From a virus, in IMG/VR virus record IMGVR_UViG_3300017991_000154, positions 1 to 47,932 of that record: 47,932 nt of DNA; one strand, written 5' to 3'. Below, in pieces: positions 3,268-47,932 of this stretch (position 1 is the stretch's first letter; each line of letters starts with the position of its first letter). The position numbers and the translations under genes were made by a program. The notes beneath the pieces are model-generated. The model saw nothing but the letters and a program-made list of their open reading frames with translations, had not been told where the DNA came from and searched no databases.

Positions 3268-3268
3268 C

Positions 3269-4476: not shown

Positions 4477-5514
4477 ATGAGTAGAACAATAAGTGTCGTA
4501 TTAAACGACTTAAACATAGCGACAAGAGACTTTATGATGGACGTCATTTCAGCAATTAACAATGACAACTATTTTTCGTCTCGGATGCTAAGAAAATCGA
4601 AACCGTTTACTGGTGGAGATAAAGCGGAAACTGATCTCCGTTATGAAAGAGAAAATGTCCAGACTATGACAGAGTATGGTGAGTATATTTTACAGCCAGT
4701 CGATATTTTAGATTTGGCTAAGTACAGCATCAAGCATGTTCATGGTGACATGGTAATCTCTCAGAAACGTTTAGAAGTACAAAACAGGGGCAAAGCTGCT
4801 GACATCTCTCTTGCTCGCACAAAGAGTGAGAATATGTCAGAAACAATGAAAAATGAATTCAGTGAGTTACTGTTCAAAGCAGTGGCAGACCTGGAAGATG
4901 AAGACCCCGATTCTCTGATTAAAATTGTCGGAACAACCAATAATACAGTTGGCGAAATTAATGCATCTACGGAAACACGGTTCGATTGGAATCCAACCGT
5001 GTATGATATTTCGAGTGCAACTCCAACATACACTAATTTAGTGGACGCAACAAATACTTATTATTTTGAAAAGTATTTGAGAATGTTGGTTGGTCCCTTA
5101 ACCATCGGAAATGATAAGCCTACTATCGGCTTGACAACTCAGGCTGTATGGGATGCTTATGAGGAAATTCTCACCACTGCGAAAAGATTCAATGATTCAA
5201 CAATGGAAGTTGATGGCGGATTTAACGTTTTGAAGTTCAGAGGAATGAAAATCGCTGTTGATTCTCACGTTCCTGGTGGAAAGATGAATTCAGATGTTTC
5301 CGATAATACAGCGTATTTCATGGCTATTAACGAAAAGTACATTGGTTATACACATTCACCCAATGTCAACTTTAAGTGGACTCCCTGGAAAAAGTTGGAG
5401 CGTCAACCAGTTTACGCCAGTCTGTTAGATTGGTTTGGCTGTGTTTGGTGTTCACGCAGAGATCGTCATGGAGCGATTTACGGACTACCATGTGACAGCC
5501 AAGTTTACACTTAA
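4477..5514 (+). CDS. Major capsid protein
   Basis: A 345-residue protein after the scaffold gene, with its own hairpin leader and a good GGAG. The size, the N-terminal helix (TRDFMMDVISAINNDNYFS), a long mid-region helix (SENMSETMKNEFSELLFKAV) and the 'FRGMKIAVDSHVPGG' strand-turn near residues 253-267 fit an HK97-fold coat protein. It would form the icosahedral shell. No decoration or Ig-like insertion is visible. Position between scaffold and decoration protein supports the call; sequence alone is not diagnostic. Confidence 0.75.
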   Translation: MSRTISVVLNDLNIATRDFMMDVISAINNDNYFSSRMLRKSKPFTGGDKAETDLRYERENVQTMTEYGEYILQPVDILDLAKYSIKHVHGDMVISQKRLEVQNRGKAADISLARTKSENMSETMKNEFSELLFKAVADLEDEDPDSLIKIVGTTNNTVGEINASTETRFDWNPTVYDISSATPTYTNLVDATNTYYFEKYLRMLVGPLTIGNDKPTIGLTTQAVWDAYEEILTTAKRFNDSTMEVDGGFNVLKFRGMKIAVDSHVPGGKMNSDVSDNTAYFMAINEKYIGYTHSPNVNFKWTPWKKLERQPVYASLLDWFGCVWCSRRDRHGAIYGLPCDSQVYT

Positions 5515-21777: not shown

Positions 21778-22016
21778 TGGAATGGTTAGAAAATAGCAAT
21801 TTTCCGAAGTATGCCTATCCCTTACATACTTTTCCTAAATATGCGGTATTGGGAAATGAGATAGCGGTAACAATAGTTAGGCGTAAGCGTGTAACGACTT
21901 CCAAAGGTGGCGGAAATGTTGAGTTTTATCCAGAAGATAAACTTATTGCTATAAAATTAATTGAAGAAAGAGAGATATTAGAAATTATCACAATTCTACT
22001 AAAGGTTATTGAATGA
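21777..22016 (+). CDS. Small hypothetical protein
   Basis: A 79-residue protein coupled to both neighbours (its ATG overlaps the spike stop, its stop overlaps the giant gene's ATG). It begins MEWLENSNFPKYAYPLHTFP, has a beta pair with Arg/Lys (ITIVRRKRV-like region) and ends in a hydrophobic helix (EILEIITILLKVIE). No family recognised. Its position suggests a role connected to the spike or to the polyvalent protein. Confidence 0.6.
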   Translation: MEWLENSNFPKYAYPLHTFPKYAVLGNEIAVTIVRRKRVTTSKGGGNVEFYPEDKLIAIKLIEEREILEIITILLKVIE

Positions 22017-28000: not shown

Positions 28001-31000
28001 AAATATAGATTAGATCATTTGACAAAGCCAATGAAGGGTGCAGATAATGCATTAAGTATTGTTAATGATGGCAGGTTAATTGCTATTGATCCGAGATCGA
28101 GATTTAAGGGAATAAAGCATCCGCCAGAGGGAAAGGTCGCAAAGGCTACAAAGGAAATATATAGAATATGGGAAGAAACCAAAGACAAAAGATATACTCA
28201 ATTAGTTTTCTCCGATTTGGCAACTCCAAGCAAAACGAAATATTCTGTTTATAACGATATTCGTAAAGCATTAATAAGCATGGGTGTTCCGAAAGATGAA
28301 ATTGCTTTTATGCACGACTATCCAGGAGCAATACAAAAAGAACGATTGTTCAGCGATATGCGGTCTGGAAATAAGCGTATTCTCTTTGGTTCGACTAAAA
28401 AGATGGGCATGGGAACAAATGTTCAAAAAAATCTTTATGCAGTTCACCACATAGATGCACCCTGGCGTCCAGCCGATGTAGAGCAAAGAGATGGGCGTAT
28501 TTATCGGCAAGGTAACTTGTGTCCTGAAATAGAAATCATTCGCTATGTCACAAAAGGTACATTTGATGCTTATATGTGGCAGACGTTAGAAGTCAAACAA
28601 GGGTTCATTGAACAATTGTTAAAGGGTAGTGCTGAAATTAGAGAAATGGAAGATGTAAATCTAAAAGATGCATTATTCGATCCTGCTCAGGCAAAAGCAT
28701 TAGCAGCAGCCAATCCGTATATGTTCGAGAAAGTCAAGACAGATGTTGAGATTAAGAAATTAGGTGCTTTAAAGAAAGCAATGAAAGATGAGGAATATAG
28801 AAGAAATAAGAAATTAACGGATGAAAAAAGATTTGTTGAGAGAAGCCAAAATAGAATTAAAGAGTTGGATGAATGGATAAAACAAGCAGTTGACACAACT
28901 GGCGATAAGTTTAAAATAAAATTAGGAAACAAATATTTTGCAGATAGAAATGAAGCTGCTAATGAATTGGATAAAAAACTTGAAGATATTTCCAGAGGGA
29001 CAGAGATAAAAGCGATAGGATATTTTAAAATTGGAGAACTTGCTGGTTTTCCATTATATGCTAAATTTTTCAATACAAAAGTCCACAAGAAGACTAACAA
29101 ATGGTATGCGGTTACTTTGCGATTCGGGGAGATTGCGCAATCAGTTGAAGTTGGAACTTTTGCTAAAGAACAAATAGTAAAAGATAATCCATTTGACATT
29201 TTGGAATTTAATTATAAATCTGAGGCATCTTTAAGTTATGTGATCGGAGGAGGTTTAGAAGTAAGAGATGATGTAACATGGAACAATGCTCGTGAAGCTA
29301 TTCTATCGTTGGAACATATTTCCAGATCATTGCCAAGAAGAAAAGAGTACGTAGAAAAACAAATAGAACAATCAGAGAAATCAATTAAATCTCTAAGTCA
29401 AGCACCGGAAGGTTTTAAACAGGAAGAAAAATTAAAACAATTAAAAGAGAGATCGCTTGAATTAGAAATGTTAATTCGACAATCGGGTGCGCAACAAGGA
29501 GAGGAAGAATTTCCAGATTTCAGTGACATTATTTCCAAATATACAGGTAGAATTACATCGAATATTATAGAATATATCGGAAAATTAGCGAATGAAAAAG
29601 GTGGCATTTCTCAAGCATTAGAGGACAGAATCAGGCAAGTAGAGGAGGAACAGGAAGAAGAAGAGATAGAGGAACAAAAGAAGCGAGGCAAAATTGCAGG
29701 AAAAGAACCAACCATCAGTTCATTAGCAGAATGGAATGCTCAGGCTATTGTTATGTTAGATAAAGCTGTACCAGGAATAGACGTTTATTATGATATTCCG
29801 AAAACAGAATTTAACAAAGCATTAGCTCAAATTGGAGCAGAGGGTGAGCCGTTAGGGTTTTTCTCACCAAAGAACAATGCAATTTTCATAAATCCAACAA
29901 AGGCAAATAAGGATACCATTTTCCATGAATATGCTCATATAGTAGTGGGTTGGATTAAGAAAAGCGATCCTGCTTTGTATCAAGAAGGTATTGGATTGTT
30001 AAAAGATTCTCCATACAAAACAACTGAAGAAGGATTAGTTCAAGCTATCGGGGAGAAAGGAGCGCAAATACAAGATGGATATAAAAAGAATCGGTTTGTT
30101 GCATGGATAAAAAAGATATGGATAAAAACAAAAATACGATTTAAGAGATTGTTCAATATTGATTTGACACTAAATGAATTTACTGAAATGATCTCTTATG
30201 CAATGCGTGGTGGTAAGCCAATCGTGCCCAAAAATGTTAGTAAAAGATTAGTAAAGCCACAATATCAATATGCAGGTGAAAGAGCAAGGACAGCGAATTT
30301 AGGCAATCTTGAATTAGCAAAACAACTTGAATCACAGGGACAAAACACGAGAACAACGACAGGATGGTTTAAGGGTCCCGATAAAAAGTGGAGATTTGTG
30401 ATTGATGATAGTGAGATGTCAATACGTAAGGTATCTGAATATCAAGCATTTCCATCTGTTTGGGACGAGAATATAAGAGATTATAAACAAGAATTTAGAG
30501 GAAGATTGGCTGACGCTGTTAAACATGATGCATTATTTGAAGCATATCCAGATTTAGCAGATATAAGGGTTTCGCTGTATATCAATGAAAATGTTAGCGT
30601 GGCTGGAATGTTAAAAACGAAAGGACTTGATTTAGCAAATGCGGAAATAATACTACAAGCTCCCGATGTTAATTCATTGAGAGAAAATTTAGCACATGAA
30701 ACCCAGCACTGGATTCAATTCTATGAAGGCTTTGCTCGTGGCGGGGAGATGGATAGAGATAGCAAGGCAGTCATTAGACAGAACATGGCTACTTTACAGC
30801 GATATTCTAATGAGATTGCTATTTCCCAACAGTTGATAGATCAAAATCCGTTCTCTTGGGACAAAGACAGACTTAACAAGGTAAGATCGAAGATTAAAGA
30901 ATTAAAATCTCAATACGATGAACTTTATAAAGTAACGAAAGAATTAAAGGATTTTGCTTATGAACAATACAAAAGATTAGCAGGTGAATTTGAAGCGAGA

Positions 31001-34528: not shown

Positions 34529-37315
34529 ATGAAAAAATTACTTATATTATTATTCTTAACTCCGACACTTTTGTTTGCTCAATTACGAAGTGACGGATTA
34601 AGAAAAAAAACCAATACAACATCTCACATCTCAATAGCCGATACGCTTGAAGCAACTAAAGCGAAAATAGATACATTGGAAGGATTAAGTACAGATTCTG
34701 TTTTTACCAAAGCAGACATGGTTTTTCTGCAAGACATTTTATTCAAAGCATCCAGTTCAAATGTGAGTCATTGGGTTGATTCAGGCGGGGATACCGTACT
34801 AACTTTTGACCCAAATGGAGCTTCTGGTCCCGTGCTAATCTTTGCAGATGGAACGGCTGCGGACACAGTGCAATTATATCACGATGGAACTAATTTTAAC
34901 ATTGTTCCTGATGCAGGAACTGGCAAAATTGATATAGATGGAAAATTAGAAACGAATCTTTCTGTGACAATTGATTCATCACGCAATGAAGGGACTTTTA
35001 GGCAAAAGGATGATGCAACATTCGGAGCTACTGCAACTGATGTTGTTATTAGTTCGGCTGGTAATGTAACGCTTAATTCAACGGTTGCAGATCAGGAACA
35101 CCCAACTTTTGTAATGAAGTCAGACTTTGACACAGATGCAAGTGCGACTACAGGATACACACTAACATGGGATCGTACAGGCAATGCTACACCTACTTCT
35201 GGCTACTGGACTTGTACAAGTTCTGGTGGACTTGGAGTCCAGATGCCTAATATGAGTATAGGTTCTGCACCCATTTCTGGTGTTTCACTGAATATAAATG
35301 GAGCACATATTAGAGTTGATCAAGCGACAAATTATACATTAGCCTTTGGAAACTCTTCTCAACAAAATAATAGTGGGCTATACTCTAACGCTTTTGGCTA
35401 TTTTTCTCAATATATTAACAGTGGATCAAAATCTAATGCTTTTGGAAACTATTCTCAACAAAATAACAGTGGAGCAAAATCTAATGCTTTTGGCTATTTT
35501 TCTCAACAAAATAACAATGAAGCAGAATGTAGTGCTTTTGGAAACTATTCTCAACAAAATAACAATGAAGCAGAATGTAGTGCTTTTGGAAACTATTCTC
35601 AACAAAACAATGATGGAGCAAAATCTAATGCTTTTGGATGTTATTCTCAATATATTAATAGTGGATCAAACTCTAACGCTTTTGGCTATTTTTCTCAATA
35701 TATTAACAGTGGGGCAAACTCTAATGCTTTTGGAAGCTACTCTCAAAAATATAACAATGGAGCAAGCTCTAATGCTTTTGGAAACTATTCTCAACAATAT
35801 AATGATGGCGATAATAATTCTTCTTTCGGCAACAAGTCTTTCAATACGTTTACGGAAGACGGTGGGAATGCCAAAACGTTTGCTAGTACAGATGTGATAG
35901 TAGATGGAGACTCAATTGTAATATCTTCTCACGGTTTTGGTAGTGCTGATACTTATGTAAATTTGAAGTGGACAGCTACTACAGGAGTATTACCGACAGG
36001 AATCAGTCTTGATCAAATAGATCAATTTTATATCGCTCATGCAGATACAATCGTTTTACAAACAGACGATATGACTACTCAGGGGAGTGGAAATCACACA
36101 CTTACACCACAAACTGTTTATACAAACAGTACGGCATTAGGATATGATGCAGAACCAGATGCAAGCAACCAGGTTATGCTTGGTGATGGGAATGTAACAC
36201 AAGTAAAATCAACTGGTAGTTTATATATTTCTGGTAGTAATGACAATTATATTAACGGAACAATGTCTATTGGTTCTTGGGGTTACACTGGTGAGCACAT
36301 CGTAATACCAGAAGCATCTAGCAATACAAATGCAGGACTTGGTTTATATGGAATGGTCAACTACGCAGCCTCGGCTGGTAAAACTATTGCTGGTACATAT
36401 TCAAGAGCTTTGTGTATGACCGAGAATCAGACGAACCAGGCAACTATCGTAGGTACTGAATCTCAGTTTAGACTACGAGATGTTAATATAGCAGATGGAG
36501 TTCACGCTGGCTTATGGGCGTATGCAGAACAAAGTGGGACATCAGTTTTAAGTGGTAATGGAACATTCGATGCTATAAATGCAACAGTTGAGTCGGAGTC
36601 TGGTTTCTCAGTCGGTGCGACAGAACAGGTTACTGGACTGACCCTTGATAGCTCAATCAATGGTAGCGCAACAATTAATGCCAGTGCTAATTTCACTGGG
36701 TTGTATATAAAGTCCAACGGCAAGGACTGGTTCAATGGAATATGGACAACTGGCTGTGCTAATGATTGGAAGTTAAGAAATGGAGCTACAATAGATAATA
36801 CTGATGCAAATACATTGACTATTACAGAACAAGATATTGATTTTGTAGGTAATTTATCGGCAACTACATATTCTATTGATGCAAACGAAGCGGTAATTTT
36901 GCCAGCGCCAGGAACTCTTACTGATGGTCAGTATGCAGGTGCAAGAATAATTACTTTAACTGCTGGTTATGGAACAACTGCAATCGGAGATTTGGTTTAT
37001 CTCAACAATGATGATTCTAAGTTTGAAAAGACTGATGGCAATGCAGCAGCAACAGCAGCCGATGTTTTGGTAGGAGTGGTATTAGAGGCTGTTGCTGAAA
37101 ATGCTTCATGTAAAATAATGCTTGAGGGAACGATTACAGTTGATGCCTGGGATTGGGCAACTGTTGGAGCTTCGTTATTTATCAGTGGCACAGCAGGGGG
37201 ATTCACTCAAACACGCTTAGCTGTAACGAATGATATTGTTAGAATTGTGGGATATGCTCTGGATGATGATACGATTTACTTTTGTCCAGATAATGCTTAT
37301 GCAACGGTGGAGTAA
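34529..37315 (+). CDS. Long tail fibre/adhesin with signal peptide and 16-residue repeats
   Basis: A 928-residue protein. Residues 1-18 form a signal peptide (ends LLFAQ). Residues 30-280 are beta-rich fibre material. Residues 286-429 are nine tandem 16-residue units of the type S-N-A-F-G-x-Y-S-Q-Q-N-N-S-G-A-K, like the YadA-head left-handed beta-roll of trimeric adhesins. The C-terminal half (ITLTAGYGTTAIGDLVYLN, ASCKIMLEGTITVDAW, GASLFISGTAGG) is the common phage fibre domain seen in many virion proteins. It is presumably a trimeric receptor-binding fibre. The combination of an adhesin-like head and a Sec signal is unusual for a phage; export before assembly, or a decoy or adhesion role, are alternatives. 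Confidence 0.75.
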   Translation: MKKLLILLFLTPTLLFAQLRSDGLRKKTNTTSHISIADTLEATKAKIDTLEGLSTDSVFTKADMVFLQDILFKASSSNVSHWVDSGGDTVLTFDPNGASGPVLIFADGTAADTVQLYHDGTNFNIVPDAGTGKIDIDGKLETNLSVTIDSSRNEGTFRQKDDATFGATATDVVISSAGNVTLNSTVADQEHPTFVMKSDFDTDASATTGYTLTWDRTGNATPTSGYWTCTSSGGLGVQMPNMSIGSAPISGVSLNINGAHIRVDQATNYTLAFGNSSQQNNSGLYSNAFGYFSQYINSGSKSNAFGNYSQQNNSGAKSNAFGYFSQQNNNEAECSAFGNYSQQNNNEAECSAFGNYSQQNNDGAKSNAFGCYSQYINSGSNSNAFGYFSQYINSGANSNAFGSYSQKYNNGASSNAFGNYSQQYNDGDNNSSFGNKSFNTFTEDGGNAKTFASTDVIVDGDSIVISSHGFGSADTYVNLKWTATTGVLPTGISLDQIDQFYIAHADTIVLQTDDMTTQGSGNHTLTPQTVYTNSTALGYDAEPDASNQVMLGDGNVTQVKSTGSLYISGSNDNYINGTMSIGSWGYTGEHIVIPEASSNTNAGLGLYGMVNYAASAGKTIAGTYSRALCMTENQTNQATIVGTESQFRLRDVNIADGVHAGLWAYAEQSGTSVLSGNGTFDAINATVESESGFSVGATEQVTGLTLDSSINGSATINASANFTGLYIKSNGKDWFNGIWTTGCANDWKLRNGATIDNTDANTLTITEQDIDFVGNLSATTYSIDANEAVILPAPGTLTDGQYAGARIITLTAGYGTTAIGDLVYLNNDDSKFEKTDGNAAATAADVLVGVVLEAVAENASCKIMLEGTITVDAWDWATVGASLFISGTAGGFTQTRLAVTNDIVRIVGYALDDDTIYFCPDNAYATVE
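35384..35815 (+). repeat. Nine tandem 48-bp repeats in the fibre gene
   Basis: Units start with TCTAATGCTTTTGG (or close variants) every 48 bases from 35384, with a degenerate half-unit on each side. Two sub-types alternate: units with TATTTTTCTCAATATATT and units with AACTATTCTCAACAAAAT. The near-identity of adjacent units suggests recent expansion and easy length change by slippage or recombination. Confidence 0.9.
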
Positions 37316-39495: not shown

Positions 39496-39855
39496 GTGAA
39501 AAAATACTTAATAAGAATTATTCTTTTATCTATGTTGTGTTTGGTTTTGTGTAGTTCTGATATAAATATCATAGCTACATGGACTAAATATGATATTGCT
39601 AATAATTCTGATGTTGAAAGATTGTCATTATGGGAGGTCGATCCCGATACTAACTGGGTGCGAACTATTAATGATTGGATTAGTCCATTTGATACAAGCT
39701 ACTCTTTTATAGTACCCGATGCTGATGCGTATGGTACCAAATATTATGTTTTGATAGCGGTAGATTCAGCAGAAAACAGAAGCGATCCAAGCAATGTTGC
39801 TTCAATAACATTCAAACTTGGATCGGTTAAAAATCTAAAAATACAAATTAAATGA
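39496..39855 (+). CDS. Exported fibronectin-III-like small protein
   Basis: A 119-residue protein with GTG start 2 bases after the previous stop. Residues 1-20 form a signal peptide with Cys at the end (LCLVLC), a poor but possible lipobox. The mature part reads as one Ig/FnIII-like domain: 'IIATWTKYDIANNSDVERL', 'WEVDPDTNWVRT', 'YYVLIAVDSAENRSDPSN'. The pattern 'A-V-D-x-A-x-N-x-S-x-P' is typical of FnIII ends. Probably surface or periplasmic. Role unknown. Confidence 0.6.
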   Translation: MKKYLIRIILLSMLCLVLCSSDINIIATWTKYDIANNSDVERLSLWEVDPDTNWVRTINDWISPFDTSYSFIVPDADAYGTKYYVLIAVDSAENRSDPSNVASITFKLGSVKNLKIQIK

Positions 39856-39864
39856 GGTGGAAAA

Positions 39865-40167
39865 ATGTTAGTCGTAAACATTCTTGGAGCAATAGTTAAA
39901 TTTGCACTTCCCTGGGAATCTATTCTTAGTTTCTTGCTTGAAATGATAGCAAACATTATCAAGGGTGAGATTGGTAAAACTAAATTCACCAAAGTTGGTA
40001 AATATGCAACTATGGGTGGATATGTACTTGCTGATGGACTTGGAGACCATCTTGTTTCTCATACGAAAACAAAGACAGATGATAAATTCATTGAGGAGTT
40101 CAAAGGTCTCTGTGAAGAAGCAGCAAGCAAGCATAACTTTAAATTACCAAAAGTGGAAGAACTGTAA
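39865..40167 (+). CDS. Small hypothetical protein closing the virion operon
   Basis: A 100-residue protein, ATG after GAGGTGG. N-terminal hydrophobic helix (VNILGAIVKFALPWESILSFL) and a soluble C-terminal half (KFIEEFKGLCEEAASKHN). Its layout fits a small membrane-associated protein. It is the last gene before the terminator at 40201. Confidence 0.6.
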   Translation: MLVVNILGAIVKFALPWESILSFLLEMIANIIKGEIGKTKFTKVGKYATMGGYVLADGLGDHLVSHTKTKTDDKFIEEFKGLCEEAASKHNFKLPKVEEL

Positions 40168-40200
40168 CTCTATCCCTTATTCATTACTTTCCTCTCAGAA

Positions 40201-40227
40201 GCCCGATCATCTTGGTCGGGTTTTCTT
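40201..40227 (+). terminator. Rho-independent terminator of the virion operon
   Basis: CCCGATCA and TGGTCGGG form an 8-bp stem with a 3-base loop, followed by TTTTCTTT. It lies 33 bases after the last plus-strand gene, at the point where the two large convergent operons meet. Confidence 0.8.
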
Positions 40228-40269
40228 TATTTGGCGGGTTAGTACTATGTTATATTTTTCCACCCATCC

Positions 40270-40399
40270 CTATAATAATTTGGGAATGGTGAGAGTAGGC
40301 GTTGCTTGGACGCTTCGTTTTTTGGTGCACCCTGGAACCCTTACCAGTCGATTTTAATCAACGCTGGATTGCAGTCCAGTCTCTCTCACCACCCCCAAA
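40270..40399. ncRNA. Structured non-coding segment within the first cassette
   Basis: No credible gene on either strand. TTTGGG-AA-TGGTGAGAG near 40272-40290 pairs with CTCTCACCA-CC-CCCAAA near 40383-40399; inside it GCGTTG pairs with CAACGC, and CTGGA-TTGCAG-TCCAG and CTGG/CCAG form side hairpins. The stems hold on either strand, so orientation is open. It occupies the cassette between the GTT at 40249 and attC-like site A. Confidence 0.5.
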
Positions 40400-40528
40400 A
40401 TATAACAATGCAAATTAACTTGACGACACCTGCGACAATGTGTACCAACGCACTTAATTCCTGTACTTTTTATCGTGTATTTCACGGCGCATATTTCATT
40501 GTCGCAAGTTATTTGCGGTACGTTATAA
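40400..40528 (+). other. Integron attC-like site A
   Basis: Left outer box ATATAAC (40400-40406), right outer box GTTATAA (40522-40528). Behind the boxes, unequal spacers (AAT / GGTAC) stay unpaired, then GCAAAT-AACTTG-CGACA pairs with TGTCG-CAAGTT-ATTTGC. The left arm has two extra bases: a T after GCAAAT and an A between AACTTG and CGACA. These are the hallmarks of attC sites (central spacer and extrahelical bases). Length 129 bp, VCR-like. The end loop holds a second short helix (CGACAATG/CATTGTCG). Confidence 0.75.
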
Positions 40529-40541
40529 TCTTGCTCACCCA

Positions 40542-41021
40542 TTACTCTTTACGGTATATACAACATACACGGGGTCGATGCCATACTCGTGTTAATATTA
40601 CAATCCTACGTTCAAATTTGCATCCATCGGGTCTTGGTGTCATTACCCAATGGTATATTACAACCCATCCACCCACTTTACAAATACGTACCGCCTCTTT
40701 AACATATTCTTTATATCTTGGTTTTGGTGTTCCGTATAATTCATAACTTTGTTGTTTATCATACGGTGGGTCCAAAATCACAAGATCATAACTATTATCA
40801 TCAATCCAGTTTAAATCATGTGCATCCCCAACCCAGGTCGGGTTTGTTCCCCCCACCAAATCAACTCTATCGCCTATTTCCGCCGCCCCACCAAACGGAT
40901 GTATTACTTTCTCAGGTTCATCTAAAAGTCGATATAATTTCTTTTCAAAATGTAATGGAAACCCACCCCTATATTTATTCTTTCGTGGTCTTGGTAAAAC
41001 CCATGTTTCAGTCGGTATCAT
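40542..41021 (-). CDS. DNA methyltransferase (DPPY type)
   Basis: A 159-residue protein from the ATG at 41021 (AGGGG upstream); a longer form to 41048 lacks a better start. Motif IV LDPPYDKQ is at residues 83-90 and a motif I-like 'HPFGGAAEIGDRVDL' at 41-55, with the order IV after I and 'VREAVRICKVGG-like' helix following, as in short N4/N6 DNA methyltransferases of phages. It would methylate host or phage DNA with AdoMet as donor, probably to avoid cutting. The stop is 11 bases before the outer box of attC-like site A. It may be either a phage gene or cassette cargo. Confidence 0.8.
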   Translation of the reverse strand: MIPTETWVLPRPRKNKYRGGFPLHFEKKLYRLLDEPEKVIHPFGGAAEIGDRVDLVGGTNPTWVGDAHDLNWIDDNSYDLVILDPPYDKQQSYELYGTPKPRYKEYVKEAVRICKVGGWVVIYHWVMTPRPDGCKFERRIVILTRVWHRPRVCCIYRKE

Positions 41022-41051
41022 ATTACCCCTTCGCAAAATTATAAACAACCG

Positions 41052-41369
41052 TTATCTTCTAAGAAACTCATACAATTTACCAGCAGTGGAAATGTCAATA
41101 TGACTACCATCTGCATTTGTAGCACAACCTGGTTTGTATTTTTTTCCAAAGTCTAATTCATAGATAAAGTATTCTATCCAGTCTCCATTGTCATTCAATT
41201 GAGTTTTTAGTATCTCAAGAATTTGGTCAACAAGAAAACTGTTGTTATAAAGCAAATTACCATCAAATGTATCTGGAAATGCTTTATGCATTGACTCTAC
41301 GAAATTATTATCATGTTCCAGTTGTTTCTTCAGTGCATTGATTGAAGAAACGAAAAGTTCTTTAGTCAT
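41052..41369 (-). CDS. Conserved phage hypothetical protein
   Basis: A 105-residue protein from the ATG at 41369 with GGAGAA upstream; the extension to 41426 overlaps the small membrane gene. The order 'INALKKQLEHDNNFVESMHKA', 'FDGNLLYNNSFLVDQILEIL', 'WIEYFIYELDFGKKY' and 'ISTAGKLYEFLRR' is familiar from small proteins of many temperate phages, with no known role. It is probably soluble and helical. Confidence 0.7.
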   Translation of the reverse strand: MTKELFVSSINALKKQLEHDNNFVESMHKAFPDTFDGNLLYNNSFLVDQILEILKTQLNDNGDWIEYFIYELDFGKKYKPGCATNADGSHIDISTAGKLYEFLRR

Positions 41370-41482
41370 TTTTTTCTCCACTTTGTCCACCAAATTATGA
41401 ATAAAATAACTCCAATTGTGTAGCAAATTAGTTCCATATTTGCCATTTTAAGCGTTTCTAAGCGTTTAATTATTTGTAACAT
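41366..41482 (-). CDS. Small single-span membrane protein
   Basis: A 38-residue open frame ending in ATGA overlap with the next gene. The product 'LICYTIGVILFIIWWTKW' with a RKK end is a clear single-span helix with a basic tail. Alternative ATG starts lie at 41446 and 41437; none has a strong Shine-Dalgarno sequence. It may be a small inner-membrane factor, like many phage micro-proteins. Confidence 0.45.
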   Translation of the reverse strand: MLQIIKRLETLKMANMELICYTIGVILFIIWWTKWRKK

Positions 41483-41640
41483 TTTTTTATAATTTCAATA
41501 TTAATAATAAATCTAATTACCAGTTAATGGTTTTGTATAACCAATTTTTTTGAATCAATAAAAACAGTAACTTATGCACTGCTGTAATCTGTGTTTTAGC
41601 GTGCTTATTATCCCTCTATTTAACAATTATTTACACTCTT
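41483..41640. other. AT-rich non-coding stretch
   Basis: About 160 bases with no credible gene on either strand. The same sequence holds CTTATGCAC also found in the half-site at 43516, and, just left of it (41448-41468), a tandem AAGCGTTT. No promoter of the TTGACA/TATCTT type is visible. Confidence 0.4.
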
Positions 41641-41880
41641 TTAGGTTTCACCATATTCCTCAATTGCTTTCCCAAGTCGTTGCAAATCCACATTTAGTGG
41701 TTTGCTGTCGAGAATGTCCTGGTATCCGTTTTCTCTAAGCCAAATCTCAAATGCTTCGTATGGTTCTATTGGTTCTTTTTCTTTGTTATCTCTATAAAAA
41801 ATTACCAATCTTTCAATGTGGTCAAGAATATTTTTTTCTCCATGTTCAGCGTCTCTAATTCGATTCCAATTTGGAGTATT
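41641..41880 (-). pseudogene. Gene remnant or +1-frame continuation lacking a start codon
   Basis: An open frame of 79 codons with coding-like content ('WNRIRDAEHGEKNILDHIERL', 'PYEAFEIWLRENGYQDIL', 'QRLGKAIEEYGET') and no methionine. It overlaps the 3' end of the 42010 gene in the +1 frame. It may be the second half of that gene after a frameshift, a programmed +1 shift, or a decayed gene. No slippery heptamer is visible at the joint. Confidence 0.55.
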
Positions 41881-42010
41881 CTATTTCATCAATTATCGAA
41901 TATCCTGCACTATTTAAATCAGTTTCAAAATCGTCTATTTCCTCACCAAGTAGAGTGAGACCCATATCTGAGAATATATCAAATAGTATCTGTTTTAATT
42001 TTGGAGTCAT
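41855..42010 (-). CDS. Small hypothetical protein (51 aa), possibly frameshifted
   Basis: From the ATG at 42010 with AAAGGACAATAG upstream. Product 'TPKLKQILFDIFSDMGLTLL' followed by an acidic segment (GEEIDDFETDLNSAG). It overlaps the end of the YopX-type gene. The following frame (41641-41880) may be its natural continuation. Confidence 0.5.
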   Translation of the reverse strand: MTPKLKQILFDIFSDMGLTLLGEEIDDFETDLNSAGYSIIDEIEYSKLESN

Positions 42011-42374
42011 TTCTATTGTCCTTTGATTCTGGATTATCATAAACATTGCCAATTATTTCACTTGTATTTGAAACAAAATACAACCATTCCCACTTCTGAT
42101 TCTTAGCGTAAAATCCATATCCACCAAAATTATATTCAACACAATAAATATTACCCATGTGCCTAAATAAATCTTTATGACAATATTCTTTTTTATTCTT
42201 GTCGTGTAAGTCTGTAAATTGACCGATTGTTTCGGGAATTACTTCATATTCATCATAGCTATCTTTGCAGATTATAAAAGCTTTGTCAGGTTCAAGTTCA
42301 CCACGATAATAATATCCATATATCCATCTATCGCTTTCTACGTCTTTTCCTCGAAACTCCATTTTTCTATTCAT
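41979..42374 (-). CDS. YopX-family phage protein
   Basis: A 131-residue protein from the ATG at 42374 (GGAGAAAAC upstream). 'MEFRGKDVESDRWIYGYYY' at the start, 'VIPETIGQFTDLHDKNKKE' in the middle and 'IIGNVYDNPE' near the end are the classic YopX order. YopX proteins are common in phages of Firmicutes and Bacteroidota; their role is unknown but they cluster with early genes. The C-terminal 17 residues are an unusual Asp/Lys/Asn tail. Confidence 0.85.
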   Translation of the reverse strand: MNRKMEFRGKDVESDRWIYGYYYRGELEPDKAFIICKDSYDEYEVIPETIGQFTDLHDKNKKEYCHKDLFRHMGNIYCVEYNFGGYGFYAKNQKWEWLYFVSNTSEIIGNVYDNPESKDNRNDSKIKTDTI

Positions 42375-42654
42375 TTGTTTTCTCCTCATGTAAAAATTCA
42401 GTTATCAGTTCTTCGATAACAGCAGCCATGGAAGTTCTTCCTTGCTCGTTTAAATATTCAGCGATGATTTCAAGTTGTTTCAGCGTTGGTTCATTCTTTT
42501 CTACACAATATTTTTCAATTAACTTTATTGTTTCAAAAATTTGCTCTTTGATCATATTTGAGAAGCTTTCTTTATTACCATAATGACTATGTAATGCTAT
42601 CACAGTTGTAAAAAAATTTTCTAATATTTCTTTTCTACTCAATTGTACTTTCAT
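42367..42654 (-). CDS. Small helical hypothetical protein
   Basis: A 95-residue protein from the ATG at 42654, preceded by AGGAGAAAGG; the alternative start at 42693 has no good ribosome site. All-helical: 'LSRKEILENFFTTVIALHSH', 'QIFETIKLIEKYCVEKN', 'LKQLEIIAEYLNEQGR' and 'AAVIEELITEFLHEE'. No family recognised. It overlaps the next gene's start by 8 bases. Confidence 0.6.
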   Translation of the reverse strand: MKVQLSRKEILENFFTTVIALHSHYGNKESFSNMIKEQIFETIKLIEKYCVEKNEPTLKQLEIIAEYLNEQGRTSMAAVIEELITEFLHEEKTNE

Positions 42655-42679
42655 CCTTTCTCCTACTGGCTCTGGTTGT

Positions 42680-43129
42680 TTATACTCTATCATTTTTCAC
42701 CATTTTTTTATTTAATATTTCTCTTATTTTATGGAACTCATTTCTTTCAGTGAGTTGCTGTTTTTTGTTTTTTTGTTCAAGCTGTATTCGTTCAGCGTTT
42801 CGCTGTCTGATCATTCTTTCATTTTCTCTTAATTGTTCCTCAGTGACCTGAACAGAAGCAAGAATTCTTTCGTACCTGGTACGACCTTTTTCTTTTTTGC
42901 TTTGTTCAAGTCGATCCACGTGAGCCTGTTTAAAATCAGCTATCAGTGGAAATGATCGATACTGGTCAAAGTGTTTCTTGCCAATATCAATTATTTCATC
43001 AATAGTCAGATATTTCAGAGCATCATAGAATTCGTTGACAAGTATCGTATTGATCTCTTTTTCTTTGTAGCTCTTGCTTGACCAAATGAGCATCTCTTTA
43101 TGAAGTTTTTGTTTGTCTTGTTCAGTCAT
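42680..43129 (-). CDS. Helicase-loader-type (G39P-like) replication protein
   Basis: A 149-residue protein. The segment 'EFYDALKYLTIDEIIDIGKKHFDQYRSFPLIADFKQA' (split here: EFYDALKYLTIDEIIDIGKK, then FPLIADFKQA) has the helix pattern and Phe-Pro turn of phage helicase loader proteins (SPP1 G39P type), which bring the replicative helicase to the origin. The C-terminal half is a long basic coiled coil (RNAERIQLEQKNKKQQLTE). A weak match; it could also be another early helical protein. Position in the replication-type cluster supports it. Confidence 0.5.
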   Translation of the reverse strand: MTEQDKQKLHKEMLIWSSKSYKEKEINTILVNEFYDALKYLTIDEIIDIGKKHFDQYRSFPLIADFKQAHVDRLEQSKKEKGRTRYERILASVQVTEEQLRENERMIRQRNAERIQLEQKNKKQQLTERNEFHKIREILNKKMVKNDRV

Positions 43130-43170
43130 TGTTTTATCATTTTTGAGATATTTGGCTGTCTAAACCTATG

Positions 43171-43488
43171 TTAGTTTGACCTAAGTTTTTTTCTGGTTTT
43201 TTTTGCGTTTTTTAAGGCTTGTTCTTTATCATCAAACACACAACCACTAACACATTGTAATTTCTTGTTTATTGTCCATGCAATATATTTAGTAGTTTCT
43301 CTTTTTAAGTTTGGCACAACTATACAGGTCGGCAAACTAACAACCGCATCAAGCTGATGCTCTTCCAATGCTTTCCAATAGCCCTTCAGCTCATCAAGCT
43401 TCCAGGCATATTGACATTTCGTGCAATGCCATAGTTTTGTCCCTGCTGAATCTTCTATTATTTCTCTTTTACATTTCGGGCATTTCAT
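43171..43488 (-). CDS. Zinc-ribbon protein
   Basis: A 105-residue protein from the ATG at 43488 (GGAG 8 bases upstream). N-terminal CxxC pair 'CPKCKREIIEDSAGTKLWHC' followed by TKC is a zinc ribbon; the middle (LPTCIVVPNLKRETTKYIAW) and C-terminus (DDKEQALKNAKKTRKKL) are an alpha/beta domain with a basic tail, likely to bind nucleic acid. A degenerate attC-like left arm lies within its coding sequence at 43336-43360. Confidence 0.65.
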   Translation of the reverse strand: MKCPKCKREIIEDSAGTKLWHCTKCQYAWKLDELKGYWKALEEHQLDAVVSLPTCIVVPNLKRETTKYIAWTINKKLQCVSGCVFDDKEQALKNAKKTRKKLRSN

Positions 43489-43508
43489 TAAATTATCTCC
43501 TTTTAATC

Positions 43509-43547
43509 GCACAGCTTATGCACGAACCGTTATATTTTTCCACCCAT
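43509..43547 (+). other. Half attC-like site D with 19-bp repeat
   Basis: GCACAGCTTATGCAC, spacer GAACC, then GTTATAT (43529-43535): the same order as the right arms of sites A, B and C. From the GTT it continues with GTTATATTTTTCCACCCAT, which recurs exactly at 40249-40267. Its left arm may be the sequence ACTAAC...AAGCTGATGC at 43336-43360 inside the zinc-ribbon gene, or may be lost. Confidence 0.5.
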
Positions 43548-43682
43548 TTTTTCTTGTAATTTATCTAAAATAGCCAATACAAATTTATCAAAAGTTCCAA
43601 ATGTGCGTCCAATATAAATCCCAACCCATAAATAACCAATTACACATGTAACGCTAATAATTATTTCTATAATCATTTTCAT
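43530..43682 (-). CDS. Small membrane protein ending in an outer box
   Basis: A 50-residue protein from the ATG at 43682 with GGAG 8 bases upstream; a TTG further upstream (43718) lies in attC-like site B and is rejected. One hydrophobic helix (IIEIIISVTCVIGYLWVGIY) followed by a soluble helix (KFVLAILDKLQEKMGGKI). The stop TAA is formed by the GTTATAT box of half-site D. The gene fits as the single cargo of a ~305-bp cassette between half-site D and site B. Confidence 0.6.
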   Translation of the reverse strand: MKMIIEIIISVTCVIGYLWVGIYIGRTFGTFDKFVLAILDKLQEKMGGKI

Positions 43683-43709
43683 TTTAATACTCCAATATTT
43701 TCCCCAAAA

Positions 43710-43840
43710 ATATAACAACGCAAATTAAGCTGACTGGATTAAGGGAGATGAATAACCTACCTCCATCCCACTTTGTAGGCTACGGTGTTCTGTGGGACTT
43801 TGTCCGCATAATCCAGCAGCTTATTTGCGGTGCGTTATGC
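43710..43840 (+). other. Integron attC-like site B
   Basis: Left box ATATAAC (43710-43716), right box GTTATGC (43834-43840). After unpaired spacers (AAC / GGTGC), GCAAAT-AAGCTG-CTGGATTA pairs with TAATCCAG-CAGCTT-ATTTGC. The left arm carries an extra T after GCAAAT and an extra A between AAGCTG and CTGG, at the same places as in site A. Length 131 bp. The classical aadA-type site also has AAGC(C)G-A-C in its left arm. It sits between two small minus-strand genes. Confidence 0.8.
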
Positions 43841-44029
43841 TTCAATGTGTTTTAAATCAGCTTTTAGATTTCTAATAATTCTATCTTTTTCATTAAGCAC
43901 CAATCTTACCAGTTCAGCAGGTGGTGTTCCGAGTGGCCCGTGTTTTTCAATGGCAGATTCAGACAAATCAAGCTCGTTAACCACATTTTCAAGCATATTT
44001 TCTAATTGTTTTTTAGACCAACAACTCAT
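43835..44029 (-). CDS. Small helical protein, one-gene cassette cargo
   Basis: A 64-residue protein from the ATG at 44029 (GGAGAA upstream). Helical: 'WSKKQLENMLENVVNELDLS', a Gly-Pro turn 'HGPLGTPPAEL', and 'LVLNEKDRIIRNLKADLKH'. The stop codon TAA lies inside the GTTATGC box of site B. The gene is alone between sites B and C, so the segment of 335 bp has the size and layout of a typical single-gene integron cassette, but with the gene reversed relative to the inferred site orientation. Function unknown. Confidence 0.65.
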   Translation of the reverse strand: MSCWSKKQLENMLENVVNELDLSESAIEKHGPLGTPPAELVRLVLNEKDRIIRNLKADLKHIEA

Positions 44030-44051
44030 TTTTTCTCCAATCTCTTTTTTT

Positions 44052-44175
44052 GCATAACATGTTAATTAAGCTGACTGGCAGCCCGCAGGCACGCGCTTAT
44101 TAGGTCGCCTGCATCGGCTGACCTTGAAGACGCTTAACCGATACCGCCAGCCAGCAGCTTATTTAAGCATTATGC
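44052..44175 (+). other. Integron attC-like site C (right box mutated)
   Basis: Left box GCATAAC (44052-44058). AAGCTG-CTGGC arms pair with GCCAG-CAGCTT, and the left arm again carries the single extra A (AAGCTG-A-CTGG). The right box reads ATTATGC (44169-44175) in place of the GTTATGC of site B, so the G of the crossover GTT is lost. Its loop has short hairpins including CAGGC/GCCTG. It may be inactive as an acceptor. Confidence 0.7.
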
Positions 44176-44610
44176 ATACAACTGATCTATATTATCCAAG
44201 TCTCTTTCGAGCTTGGTTTGTTTTTTCTGTGATTTCTGATTCAGATAAGATTCAAATTTGTTACCAAATAGCGTTTCTGGACGTAGAAACTTTTCATATT
44301 CAGTGTTAGACCAATCAGCTACTTTCTTGTCGATAACTTCTTTGCAATCTTCAACAGTGAACTTTTCATTGAATCTTGCAACTAAGTGTTTCTTGACATT
44401 ATTTGAATTATGTCTGAATTTTGAGTTAGTTTTTTCATTAAGATAATTGATAATTTCTTTTCGTTCAGCATTATAGTTTTGTTCCATTGCTAAAGCTTTC
44501 AATGCTTTTAATGAATTAATTTTCATAAATTCTAAAGTTTCATCAGGAATTGTGTTGTTGTTTTCTCGTAAAAATAAATACGCATCCATTATTGACTCTT
44601 TTGTTGGCAT
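44170..44610 (-). CDS. Phage protein with Phg_2220_C-type C-terminal domain
   Basis: A 146-residue protein. The region 'IINYLNEKTNSKFRHNSNN' followed by 'IDKKVADWSNTEYEKFLRPE', 'TLFGNKFESYLNQ' is the conserved phage C-terminal domain (often named Phg_2220_C), seen at the end of replication initiation proteins. Here it is a stand-alone protein with a short N-terminal helical part (ESIMDAYLFLRENNNTIPDE). It may work with the initiator at 46243. The stop TAA lies within the right box of attC-like site C. Its leader holds the attenuator-like element at 44625-44735. Confidence 0.8.
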   Translation of the reverse strand: MPTKESIMDAYLFLRENNNTIPDETLEFMKINSLKALKALAMEQNYNAERKEIINYLNEKTNSKFRHNSNNVKKHLVARFNEKFTVEDCKEVIDKKVADWSNTEYEKFLRPETLFGNKFESYLNQKSQKKQTKLERDLDNIDQLYA

Positions 44611-44624
44611 TTTCCATATTCCTT

Positions 44625-44735
44625 AATAAAAAAAGCCTATTTGGATCGAGACTTGTGGGTGTGCTTGAAGGGTAATGTCACATAACCCTGCCCTCAAGCC
44701 CCGATCAAAACAGGCTTTCATGTGACATTTTTATT
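44625..44735 (-). promoter_or_regulatory. Attenuator-like leader with mutually exclusive stems
   Basis: Read on the minus strand: AATGTCACAT (44729-44720) can pair with ATGTGACATT (44683-44674). A second fold pairs AAGCCT (44717-44712), GATCG (44706-44702) and CTTGAGGG (44698-44691) with CCCTTCAAG (44672-44664), CGATC (44648-44644) and AGGCTT (44638-44633), followed by seven T and the ATG of the 44610 gene. The folds compete, or form a pseudoknot. On the plus strand, AATGTCACAT/ATGTGACATT followed by a T-rich run is a terminator. Confidence 0.6.
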
Positions 44736-44795
44736 TATTTTTTCTCAAGCACAAAATAAAGATAGTAATAATAACTGAAAATTGCAAGTACTTTT

Positions 44796-45032
44796 TTATT
44801 TTTCTTCTAATAGATCATAATAGTCGCAAATGATTTGATTTTGTCTTTCTTGCTCTGACATTTTTGGTCTTTTATTCCACCGTGATATTAATTCACCACT
44901 ACCACAACAAGTTAAAATAGCTGCACCACAAGTATAGCAATGTATAATATCTTTCATTATACGATCACCCACTGTGACTTCCTCAATTAAACCAATATCT
45001 GCACTTCCACAGAATGGACATGGTTTATACAT
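44796..45032 (-). CDS. Lar-like restriction alleviation protein
   Basis: A 78-residue protein from the ATG at 45032 (GGAGAAGC upstream). 'YKPCPFCGSADIGLIEE' and 'IIHCYTCGAAILTCCGSGEL' followed by 'RWNKRP' match the Lar family (Lar_restr_allev), with two CxxC zinc-binding pairs and the terminal W-N-x-R motif. Lar of Rac and related phages reduces type I restriction. The tail (MSEQERQNQIICDYYDLLEEK-like) is extra. Its start overlaps the primase gene's end. Confidence 0.75.
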   Translation of the reverse strand: MYKPCPFCGSADIGLIEEVTVGDRIMKDIIHCYTCGAAILTCCGSGELISRWNKRPKMSEQERQNQIICDYYDLLEEK

Positions 45033-45558
45033 TGCTTCTCCTTTCATAAACAAGATCATTGAGTTGGTTATCGAGCTTATACAGAATAAACTCAATGTCC
45101 TCATTGTTTTGTTTTCTGCATATATCGCTTATTTCGTCAATTGCTTTCACGACTGCTTTTATTTTTTTTTCATAACCAAAATAGTCTGATAGCTGTTCTC
45201 TCCATTGCGCTTGTAAAAAGTGAGTTGGAAAAATAGCTTCGTTGTACTTGCTGTAATCTTGTTTCTTTTCTTTTCCAGGATCGTATGGAGTTCCAGTTAG
45301 ATCACAAAGATATTTTATTGCTTCCTGGAATGAGCAGTTGTTAACAAGTTGTACCAATTTTAGTTTATCGCCAGACTCTAAACAACTAAAGCATCTGAAT
45401 GTGTTATTATTCCAACTAAATGAATTTGGATTTTCACCTAAATGTATTGGACATTTTGATCTTTTTTTGTTTGTATTAAAACTTGTTATGTTGAAATGAA
45501 GCAATAATTGTTCAAATGATATTGCACTTTTCAATCTTGCTAATTTATGTTTTTCCAT
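45025..45558 (-). CDS. CHC2 zinc-finger primase-type protein (no Toprim)
   Basis: A 177-residue protein. The finger 'KCPIHLGENPNSFSWNNNTF' then RCFSCLESGD gives ligands C36, H39, C56 and C59, the DnaG/CHC2 pattern with Ile in place of the usual Phe of CPFH. 'SFQEAIKYLCDLTG' continues the DnaG N-domain. No Toprim domain is encoded; the C-terminal half is a coiled-coil-like segment. A stand-alone finger could prime together with a host or phage core, or regulate it. Confidence 0.75.
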   Translation of the reverse strand: MEKHKLARLKSAISFEQLLLHFNITSFNTNKKRSKCPIHLGENPNSFSWNNNTFRCFSCLESGDKLKLVQLVNNCSFQEAIKYLCDLTGTPYDPGKEKKQDYSKYNEAIFPTHFLQAQWREQLSDYFGYEKKIKAVVKAIDEISDICRKQNNEDIEFILYKLDNQLNDLVYERRSNV

Positions 45559-46065: not shown

Positions 46066-46239
46066 CTATGTTTGTAGTTAGTAATTGTAATCATTACAAA
46101 CTTGATAATGAAAAACTACTTTGAAATTTTAAACTCTTTACAATATATACTAATAATGTAGTAAAAATGCTATTATTCATGTTTGTACCAGAAAAATTTT
46201 AATTCTCTTTTCTTTTCTTTCCTTTTCTTTCACAACATT
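46066..46239. other. AT-rich region with pyrimidine tract next to iterons (candidate origin)
   Basis: No gene. A TTTT/CTTT pyrimidine run of 36 bases (46197-46232) follows the AT-rich part (46066-46196) and abuts the four 21-bp repeats at 46240. An AT-rich, strand-biased tract beside iterons is the usual layout of an iteron origin. Confidence 0.4.
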
Positions 46240-46323
46240 AATTCAAATAATGTCGACATTAATTGAATTGTTGTCTACATTAATAAAATTAATGTTATCA
46301 TTTATTGAATTATTGTTTACAAG
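46240..46323. repeat. Four 21-bp iterons
   Basis: Consecutive 21-bp units begin at 46240, 46261, 46282 and 46303 with shared features A-A-T-T-G-A-A-T-T-x-T-T-G-T-x-x-A-C-A-T-T. They lie in the 3' end of the initiator gene and are read as heptapeptide-like Asn/Asp/Ile repeats. This arrangement (initiator gene with its own binding repeats) is typical of lambda O-type origins. Confidence 0.65.
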
Positions 46324-46707
46324 AAAAAATTCTCTAATTATTGGTATCTCTTTTCTGCGTTCTGTGATTCGCAAATATCTTCTCTGAATACTTTCAGAAG
46401 TTAGTATACTATAATTGTCATATAGTTCTTTGTGAAACAGACCTTCTTGCAAACATACATTTGCAATGGTGACTAATTTGTCAAGTTCAATATTAATTTT
46501 ATTGGATAATAATTTCTGTCGTTTTTGATCGAACTTGATATAATAACCTTTGTCTTGATATATTTTCTCAAGTAGTTTATTGTAAATTGCATAACCTTCG
46601 AGACCTGTTTCAGCTTCTAAATATTCTATTCTTGGATCGCTTGACATATTAGTATCGTGTGAAAAGTAAATCAATCCAATTTTATGAGGTGCTCCTGGCT
46701 GTGACAT
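46243..46707 (-). CDS. Replication initiator-type protein (Lin1244/Lin1753-like)
   Basis: A 154-residue protein from the ATG at 46707 (AAGGAT upstream); the longer form to 46737 overlaps the HTH gene. 'KIGLIYFSHDTNMSSDPRIEYLE' (split: IYFSHDTNMSSD, RIEYLEAETG), 'LEGYAIYNKLLEKIYQDKGYY' and 'IQRRYLRITERRKEIP' match the Lin1244/Lin1753 (DUF4373) replication N-domain. The C-terminal 24 residues are encoded by the four iterons and read as Asn/Ile/Asp repeats. It should bind those repeats and begin phage replication. A separate Phg_2220_C protein at 44610 may supply the missing C-domain. Confidence 0.7.
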   Translation of the reverse strand: MSQPGAPHKIGLIYFSHDTNMSSDPRIEYLEAETGLEGYAIYNKLLEKIYQDKGYYIKFDQKRQKLLSNKINIELDKLVTIANVCLQEGLFHKELYDNYSILTSESIQRRYLRITERRKEIPIIREFFLVNNNSINDNINFINVDNNSINVDII

Positions 46708-46876
46708 TGTTATTATCCTTCTTTGCTTTCCATTCATCTAAATCAGATTGTTTAACTTTGTATTGATTGCCAAACTTAGTACTTGGGATAGCAAAGTTTC
46801 TGATTAATATAATAAGCTCAGAATAGTGCATATCCAAATATTCTGCTGCTTCTTTGACAGTCATTTCTGTATTCAT
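46682..46876 (-). CDS. Excisionase/MerR-like HTH protein
   Basis: A 64-residue protein, ATG with AAGGAAG upstream, first gene of the minus-strand operon. 'TEMTVKEAAEYLDMHYSELI' and 'FAIPSTKFGNQYKVKQSDLDEW' are typical of the excisionase/helix-turn-helix (HTH_17) fold that bends or marks DNA. It may be a regulator or directionality factor; no integrase gene is in the window to pair with it. Confidence 0.75.
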   Translation of the reverse strand: MNTEMTVKEAAEYLDMHYSELIILIRNFAIPSTKFGNQYKVKQSDLDEWKAKKDNNNVTARSTS

Positions 46877-47348: not shown

Positions 47349-47932
47349 AAATAGAAATAAAAAATAGATTCACAGGAAATATTTTATTTTCTGTTAAAAC
47401 AAAGAATATTAAATTGGCAGTAGAAGCAGCTATTAAACAAGACGCTGATTTGCACGGCGCTGATTTGCAAGGCGCTTATTTGCAAGACGCTTATTTGCGA
47501 GGCGCTAATTTGCAAGGCGCTGATTTGCGAGGCGCTGATTTGCACGGCGCTTATTTGCGAGGCGCTGATTTGCAAGACGCTGATTTGCAAGGCGCTGATT
47601 TGCACGGCGCTTATTTGCGAGGCGCTAATTTGCAAGGCGCTGATTTGCGAGGCGCTAATTTGCGAGGCGCTGATTTGCGAGGCGCTGATTTGCACGGCGC
47701 TGATTTGCAAGACGCTGATTTGCGAGGCGCTGATTTGCAAGACGCTGATTTGCAAGGCGCTGATTTGCAAGGCGCTTATTTGCGAGGCGCTAATTTGCAA
47801 GGCGCTGATTTGCGAGGCGCTAATTTGCGAGGCGCTGATTTGCGAGGCGCTGATTTGCAAGGCGCTGATTTGCAAGGCGCTGATTTGCACGGCGCTTATT
47901 TGCGAGGCGCTGATTTGCGAGGCGCTAATTTG
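47345..47932 (+). CDS. Pentapeptide-repeat protein (3' end outside window)
   Basis: GTG start at 47345 overlapping the previous stop; 196 codons open to the window edge. Residues 1-33 (KIEIKNRFTGNILFSVKTKN) form the short N-terminal part often found in phage pentapeptide proteins, followed by ~32 units of A-D-L-x-G type (variants A-Y-L, A-N-L; Gln, Arg or His then Gly or Asp). These fold as a four-sided right-handed helix; some relatives (Qnr, MfpA) mimic DNA to protect gyrase. The opposite strand has a long open frame over the repeats that is a shadow. Confidence 0.85.
   Translation, partial: MKIEIKNRFTGNILFSVKTKNIKLAVEAAIKQDADLHGADLQGAYLQDAYLRGANLQGADLRGADLHGAYLRGADLQDADLQGADLHGAYLRGANLQGADLRGANLRGADLRGADLHGADLQDADLRGADLQDADLQGADLQGAYLRGANLQGADLRGANLRGADLRGADLQGADLQGADLHGAYLRGADLRGANL
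47444..47932 (+). repeat. 15-bp tandem repeat array in the pentapeptide gene
   Basis: About 32 units of GC-(G/T/A)AT-TTG-C(AA/GA/AC)-G(G/A)C every 15 bases up to the window end, almost without synonymous change. Variation is limited to four base positions. The uniform third-codon bases indicate very recent amplification. Confidence 0.9.

Follow-up and report, generated by a model that had tools for sequence, protein, structure and literature searches.

Integron cassette sites unaccompanied by an integrase are known from phage genomes. From a screen of 10,705 phage genomes with IntegronFinder and HattCI, the excerpts of Qi et al. (2023; PMC9892861) used here report 17 clusters of attC sites lacking integron integrase (CALINs), recombination by IntI1 at five of the six phage attC sites tested, and methyltransferases among the cargo; no other titles on phage CALINs turned up in the literature searched, which was without preprints and most subscription journals. 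Here we describe an element of this kind in the IMG/VR record IMGVR_UViG_3300017991_000154, a linear record of 47,932 nt that is probably a fragment and whose entire length is the window analyzed in this study. The best explanation of the element, which we hold with a probability of about 0.87, is a short CALIN at the junction of the late and early genes of an uncultured tailed-phage genome. The kind has been known since 2023 and the window is a further, well-formed example; a preliminary description of this DNA had considered phage cassette arrays without an integrase rare or undescribed, a view that the 17 reported CALINs overturn.

The window has in common with the phages TJE1, PH101, P12002L and MW202573 that attC sites are present in a phage genome without intI, that they are accompanied by small accessory genes, and that a DNA methyltransferase is among the cargo. 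It differs from the published phage CALINs in coming from an uncultured phage, in its long attC sites, in the stop codons located within the right boxes, and in a multi-gene block between two of the sites (A and D, below). The integron of Vibrio phage Va_90-11-286_p16 (MK672802, locus L003) follows the same site grammar, with an extra base in the left arm and most sites 126-129 nt long, but unlike the window it has an intI and a long array in which the attC top strand carries 15 of the 18 annotated genes. In P12002L, the methyltransferase genes lie at the end of the minus-strand genes and face the late operon. In PH101 (L065), open reading frames (ORFs) occur on both strands between the sites; as a separate observation, an 82-aa top-strand ORF at 32466-32714 between its attC sites is absent from the GenBank annotation, and a start at 31059 with the same leader is broken by an early stop.

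Structure and detection of the sites

Two sites, A (40400-40528) and B (43710-43840), agree with integron attC sites in sequence, in structure and in strand, and both have the plus strand as top strand. As the reference for the outer boxes we took RYYYAAC (R'') and GTTRRRY (R'), with cleavage after the G of GTT. Site A has the left box ATATAAC and the right box GTTATAA, and site B has ATATAAC and GTTATGC, so that the AAC/GTT cores are intact while the flanking letters fit the consensus only partly. The layout of A is TAAC-AAT-GCAAAT-(T)-AACTTG-(A)-CGA... / ...TCG-CAAGTT-ATTTGC-GGTAC-GTTA, and that of B is TAAC-AAC-GCAAAT-(T)-AAGCTG-(A)-CTGGAT... / ...ATCCAG-CAGCTT-ATTTGC-GGTGC-GTTA. In both, unequal spacers of 3 and 5 bases are followed by a central arm, by AAGCTG or AACTTG, and by further pairing; the two sites share the GCAAATTAA arm, and the unmatched A is present in the left arm only, as the preliminary description had noted. 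The same description had placed A, B and C correctly and had given all three TAAC/GTTA outer boxes, which is right for A and B but wrong for the right side of C, where ATTA replaces GTTA.

Site C (44052-44175, plus strand) has the left box GCATAAC and a decayed right box, ATTATGC, which departs from the box consensus, and is plausibly a decayed attC site. A candidate fourth site, D (43338-43532, plus strand, 195 nt), had been overlooked. Its layout is TAAC-AACC-GCAT-C-AAGCTG-A-TGC ... GCA-CAGCTT-ATGC-ACGAACC-GTTA, with TAAC/GTTA boxes, and it is probably a relic attC. Sites A, B and C are long attC sites of 124-131 nt. About 3.2 kb separates A from B, with D in between, and C lies 0.2 kb past B. 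An imperfect inverted repeat with inner arms, an unpaired central spacer and extrahelical bases confined to the L'' arm was found in A, B and D on the plus strand, and these extrahelical bases are on the same side as in the Vibrio phage integron. The integron integrase model TIGR02249 gave no match in the record, a linear fragment beyond whose ends an intI could lie; in the control, integrases scored over the cut-off in L003 and in the genome of locus L007, a gammaproteobacterial metagenome-assembled genome. We defined a CALIN as two or more attC sites clustered within a few kb and lacking an integron integrase, and because the attC sites are clustered and the record has no integrase, the element fits this definition.

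To score the sites with information from elsewhere, we built a covariance model of our own, R2, from 24 attC arms that include no site of the window, with a 66-column loop. The starting set held 32 sites, of which seven Vibrio sites were dropped because an automatic parse had shifted their register, leaving 25 for a first model, R1; the training of R2 also excluded L007_4865, because that bacterial site had been fished out with the site-B pattern. A MAFFT alignment (A1, 29 joined arms) with some Vibrio sites out of register was left unused. In the window, R2 recovered B at 23.7 bits (E=3.2e-4) and A at 20.2 bits (E=0.0023) on the plus strand only, with the next best score at 10.2 bits. In the positive control, the Vibrio phage integron, 16 attC sites, including 12 that the training set did not contain, scored 18.4-34.5 bits, and the next best score was 10.6 bits. 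In PH101, two sites at 22.8-23.7 bits and one at 16.3 bits fell in the cluster that we take to be the published CALIN. The maximum across 96,411 bases of other phage DNA was 10.2 bits, although this negative ground is impure, as it contains 48,000 of the 48,689 bases of P12002L, a phage with a published CALIN.

Long sites escape R1, whose loops were trimmed to four N columns: none of A, B, C and D was found with it, and no Vibrio site of L003 rose clearly over background. R2 replaced it for long loops and R1 was retained for short-loop sites only. With R1, three sites were found in TJE1, two of them from its own training set, and two in MW202573, both on the minus strand (24.7 and 20.7 bits; E 0.005 and 0.037) and not in the training; the pairing scan adds a weak third site in MW202573.

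Pairing scans single out the same places. A relaxed scan that allows extra bases in the left arm only ranked B (22), A (19) and C (18) as the top three of the window, followed by 15, and 20 dinucleotide shuffles of one strand gave no score of at least 17 and two of at least 16. An earlier scan without the bulge rule also placed B first (22) and A second (19), with 17 as the best of 40 shuffles and for an ordinary terminator-like hairpin at 10048-10109. A strict two-bulge architecture matched three times in the window on the plus strand (A, B and D), never on the minus strand, and in none of 300 one-strand shuffles; a scan of both strands of 64 other loci, some of which overlap (601,400 bases in total), gave one match, in a locus fetched for intI. 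This architecture is specific but insensitive, as it recovered none of the known attC sites in L003, L004 and L007. Two bacterial loci fetched for intI contain near-perfect long hairpins with attC-like left arms (GTTCAACC-GAC...), L038 at about 3184-3296 on the plus strand and L046 at about 3215 of the minus strand; they score 29 in the pairing scan, far over ordinary attC sites.

Gene context, cargo and relatives

Phage genes flank the array on both sides according to Pfam and PHROG. The late genes, which include the major head protein (4477-5514, phrog_9953), run on the plus strand as far as 40167, and the terminator scan places a hairpin at the end of this operon (40198-40224, plus strand), to the immediate left of the array. 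Past about 40542 the likely genes, the replication genes among them, lie on the minus strand up to the end of the record. The right border is formed by a replication-initiator C-terminal domain, Phg_2220_C (44170-44610, minus strand; PF09524, E 1.1e-28; phrog_428, E 1.9e-36), whose stop codon lies within the right box of C.

The left edge of the array is the 19-nt GTTATATTTTTCCACCCAT (40249-40267, plus strand, from the repeat search), which opens with the R'-like box GTTATAT and has an exact second copy starting at 43529, at the right box of D. The body of the first cassette (40250-40402 of 40250-40528, strand not assigned) has no convincing ORF and consists of a strongly structured element at about 40270-40403, whose RNA fold has z values of -4.05 on the plus and -4.86 on the minus strand (0 of 200 shuffles each). 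This element gave no Rfam family at the gathering score and no overlapping match at a relaxed threshold, and ARAGORN found no tRNA in it; a tRNA or a known RNA family was thus rejected. In the excerpts of PMC11014356 used here, most of 29 gene-less Vibrio cassettes tested are reported to contain promoters.

Next to A lies a DNA methyltransferase-like ORF (40542-41048, minus strand; phrog_3816, E 1.6e-14, and weak methyltransferase models in PADLOC), with its stop codon 13 nt from the right box of A; it was the sole match of the defence models to the array cargo. Several phage-type or unknown small genes follow on the minus strand from 41052 to 43129 (Pfam, PHROG), namely a phrog_28377 family gene (41052-41426), a YopX family ORF (41979-42389), and two ORFs without a sure family (42367-42693 and 42680-43129). 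A minus-strand zinc-ribbon ORF (43171-43512), matched by weak zinc-ribbon models that all remain under the Pfam cut-off, more likely starts at the ATG at 43488 after AAAGGAG, and its 5' part lies within the D loop. Single small ORFs fill the D-B and B-C intervals. The first is a likely cassette ORF (43530-43718, minus strand; no Pfam or PHROG match) for a small protein ending in MGGKI, with its stop codon within the right box of D; the second (43835-44029, minus strand; 64 aa, no PHROG match) has an ATG after GGAG and a stop codon within the right box of B, and is overlapped by a 75-aa plus-strand ORF (43830-44057) without a family match or a GGAG-like sequence. Thus, three minus-strand ORFs stop within the right box of D, B or C.

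A Lar-like restriction alleviation protein (PF14354) is encoded close to the array at 44796-45104 on the minus strand, and this gene and the methyltransferase-like ORF form an anti-restriction neighbourhood. Some further features were noted along the record. The replication initiator seems to be divided into two minus-strand genes, Lin1244_N (46243-46737) and Phg_2220_C (44170-44610), which match distinct ends of phrog_20981 and are separated by primase-like and Lar-like genes. About four AT-rich repeats with a period of 21 at 46235-46321, at the 3' end of the initiator N-terminal gene, are possible origin iterons. At 47438-47932 a 15-nt unit repeated 33 times encodes a protein of the decapeptide-repeat type (PF25296, just under cut-off) that reaches the end of the record; 9.6 copies of a tandem 48-nt repeat occupy 35345-35802 within a large ORF (34529-37315); and an HNH/AP2 homing-endonuclease-like ORF (2120-2866, plus strand) sits amid the structural genes.

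The head protein has three relatives in IMG/VR, and its alignment retrieved the same three; three other proteins of the window retrieved none in viral contigs, and the phage collection gave no close isolate, with three records for the head protein at no more than 25% identity. Only one relative, G372 (41,266 nt, head protein 66% identical), extends past the structural genes. Many of its structural genes have matches in the window that keep the gene order, as far as the large ORF at 22013-33805 and, weakly, the one after it. The last few kb of its late genes and the ORFs of its junction gave no blastp match to the window at 1e-4, so that the junction looks the same by gene order and by the change of coding strand. 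The accessory genes at this junction differ from those of the window; they converge on the late genes, and a terminator-like hairpin marks their end. Among them, a DNA methyltransferase (L057:1427-2050; phrog_757, E 3.7e-76) has attC-like hairpins before the gene and at its 3' end, with decayed right boxes and normal polarity. The left-arm motif of the first hairpin has a single occurrence, at L057:1358, compared with 0.0067 per shuffled genome, for a motif that was picked after seeing the site, and the fold of this hairpin is unremarkable (z -1.28 and -1.40). G372 is therefore suggestive of variable cargo at one place, short of proof.

Outside phages, a pattern search of genome contigs gave four stretches, one of which is an attC site, in L007: it has nearly the same arms (AAATTAAGCCGACC/GGTCGGCTTATTTG) as those in the window, it lies within an attC array, and the genome carries an intI over the cut-off. 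Among 369 genomes of the class of L007, the left-arm pattern matched with one mismatch in five, no more than the reversed control. Two stretches examined from Riemerella phages that share the gene at 41052-41426 have no attC-like site nearby.

Weighing the CALIN reading and its rivals

Several results weigh against a CALIN. With R2, C is not above background (7.4 bits, E 2.8), a low score that is due to its right box ATTATGC, and D was not detected, its 195 nt exceeding the length of the model. The covariance check therefore confirmed two of the three sites first described, and the idea of an integron-like array stands for A and B, on the R2 scores and the strand, with C only plausible. The best apparent background of R2 elsewhere was 13.3 bits, in an AT-rich stretch of PH101, and the model raised no published CALIN site of P12002L over background, where the best score near the methyltransferase genes was 9.8 bits (L052:30005-30059); R2 is thus neither complete nor free of noise. 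The fold of the single DNA strands has z values of -2.13 (A), -4.08 (B) and -3.83 (C) for the bottom strands and of -3.29, -4.75 and -3.77 for the top strands. For A and B the top strand folds no worse than the bottom strand, so that folding energy alone gives no bottom-strand preference. The minimum-energy fold of D is not that of an attC (z -1.61).

The polarity and the size of the cargo are also not those of normal cassettes, and the inverted ORF polarity, the less common feature of this array, had gone unremarked. The likely array ORFs are all on the minus strand, the reverse of normal cassettes, in view of the plus strand being the attC top strand, and the classical arrangement, in which a single ORF precedes an attC of its own polarity, was not found. 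The choice of the minus-strand ORFs is partly inference, the plus-strand ORFs overlapping them; all array ORFs with a family match at E<1e-5 are on the minus strand, six overlapping plus-strand ORFs have no Pfam or PHROG match, and a GGAG-like sequence precedes some minus-strand starts and no plus-strand start. The choice of the bottom strand sets the orientation required for expression from the integron promoter Pc, according to the excerpts of PMC8946536 used here, and the array ORFs would consequently face away from normal expression in an integron. In the phage they run along with the early genes. A reversed polarity like that of the window is seen in MW202573, where the genes are annotated on the plus strand and the attC sites are on the minus strand. 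TJE1, unlike the window, has normal polarity, and this together with the ORFs on both strands in PH101 means that reversal is no rule of phage arrays; we rejected a general rule of inverted polarity in phages. A phrase search of the literature found no title on reversed cassette polarity. From A to D, about 2.8 kb form a multi-gene block that is mostly phage-type and unlike a classical cassette, so that the space between A and B, taken before as cassette space, mostly holds several phage-type genes and not one-gene cassettes.

Finally, the hairpins of G372 were found by neither R1 nor R2, and three exact patterns revealed no second phage with the same sites in the viral contigs; gain or loss of cassettes was thus not seen. 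The sole viral-contig stretch matched, by one of the patterns, is not an attC.

The alternative that survives best is a special case of the CALIN and not exclusive of it, namely that the sites entered with a fragment of a host integron through illegitimate recombination and are now inert, the phage simply retaining genes of use to it. The right box of C and the length of D look decayed, the record has no integrase, and illegitimate or off-target capture is proposed for some phage CALINs in the excerpts of Qi et al. (PMC9892861). However, A and B retain intact box cores, spacers and extrahelical bases, and the genes between A and D are in large part phage-type, unlike typical host cassettes. 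We regard a passive remnant as a serious contender that falls somewhat short of an even chance. Far less credible, and rejected here, is the reading of the hairpins as ordinary terminators of transcription, or as some other structural element repeated at the ends of genes, with a coincidental likeness to attC. Three of the four sites hold the stop codon of a likely minus-strand ORF in their right box, and attC sites may themselves be weak terminators, as stated in the excerpts of PMC9892861. Yet a scan of 39800-44800 gave five terminators, none of them at A, B or C and one (43360-43346, minus strand) within the left arm of D, whereas the boxes, the spacers and the extra A fit attC and R2, trained on outside sites, recognizes A and B on the expected strand. 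An assembly chimera of a phage contig and a bacterial integron is the least believable explanation, as the array is embedded in one contig between a phage late operon and phage replication genes and G372 has a comparable accessory region at a like place, even though the record is linear and metagenomic with no coverage given.

Possible mechanism and significance

If the array is a CALIN, its sites would work only in trans, as the phage record has no such recombinase. When phage DNA is single-stranded, during entry or replication, the strand complementary to the plus strand could fold at A or B, and a host integron integrase might then join the folded strand to another attC, with loss or gain of a cassette, or to attI, which would move phage genes into the host integron. 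Between such events, the genes would be read from the phage's own early transcription and not from Pc, and ORFs against the attC polarity would be tolerated because of this. Anti-restriction and other accessory genes could be exchanged in this way. An experimental precedent for the activity of phage attC sites is the recombination by IntI1 described in the excerpts of PMC9892861.

We also considered whether the phage lineage keeps the late/early junction as a standing landing platform for phage-adapted cassettes, whose ORFs would face against attC to join early transcription, stay silent behind a host Pc, and circulate among phages via borrowed host integrases. The methyltransferase genes beside attC or attC-like sites in both the window and G372, and the inverted polarity of MW202573, speak for it, and that polarity is normal in TJE1 and at the weak sites of G372 speaks against it; we consider such a platform unlikely.

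The window extends the short list of phage lineages with integron sites by an uncultured one, and A and B are two unusually clean sites. The genes of cassettes carried by phages may be oriented to suit the phage operon and not the integron promoter, and a trade of this kind between phages and integrons, if it takes place, could carry anti-restriction genes from phages to bacterial cassette pools or back.

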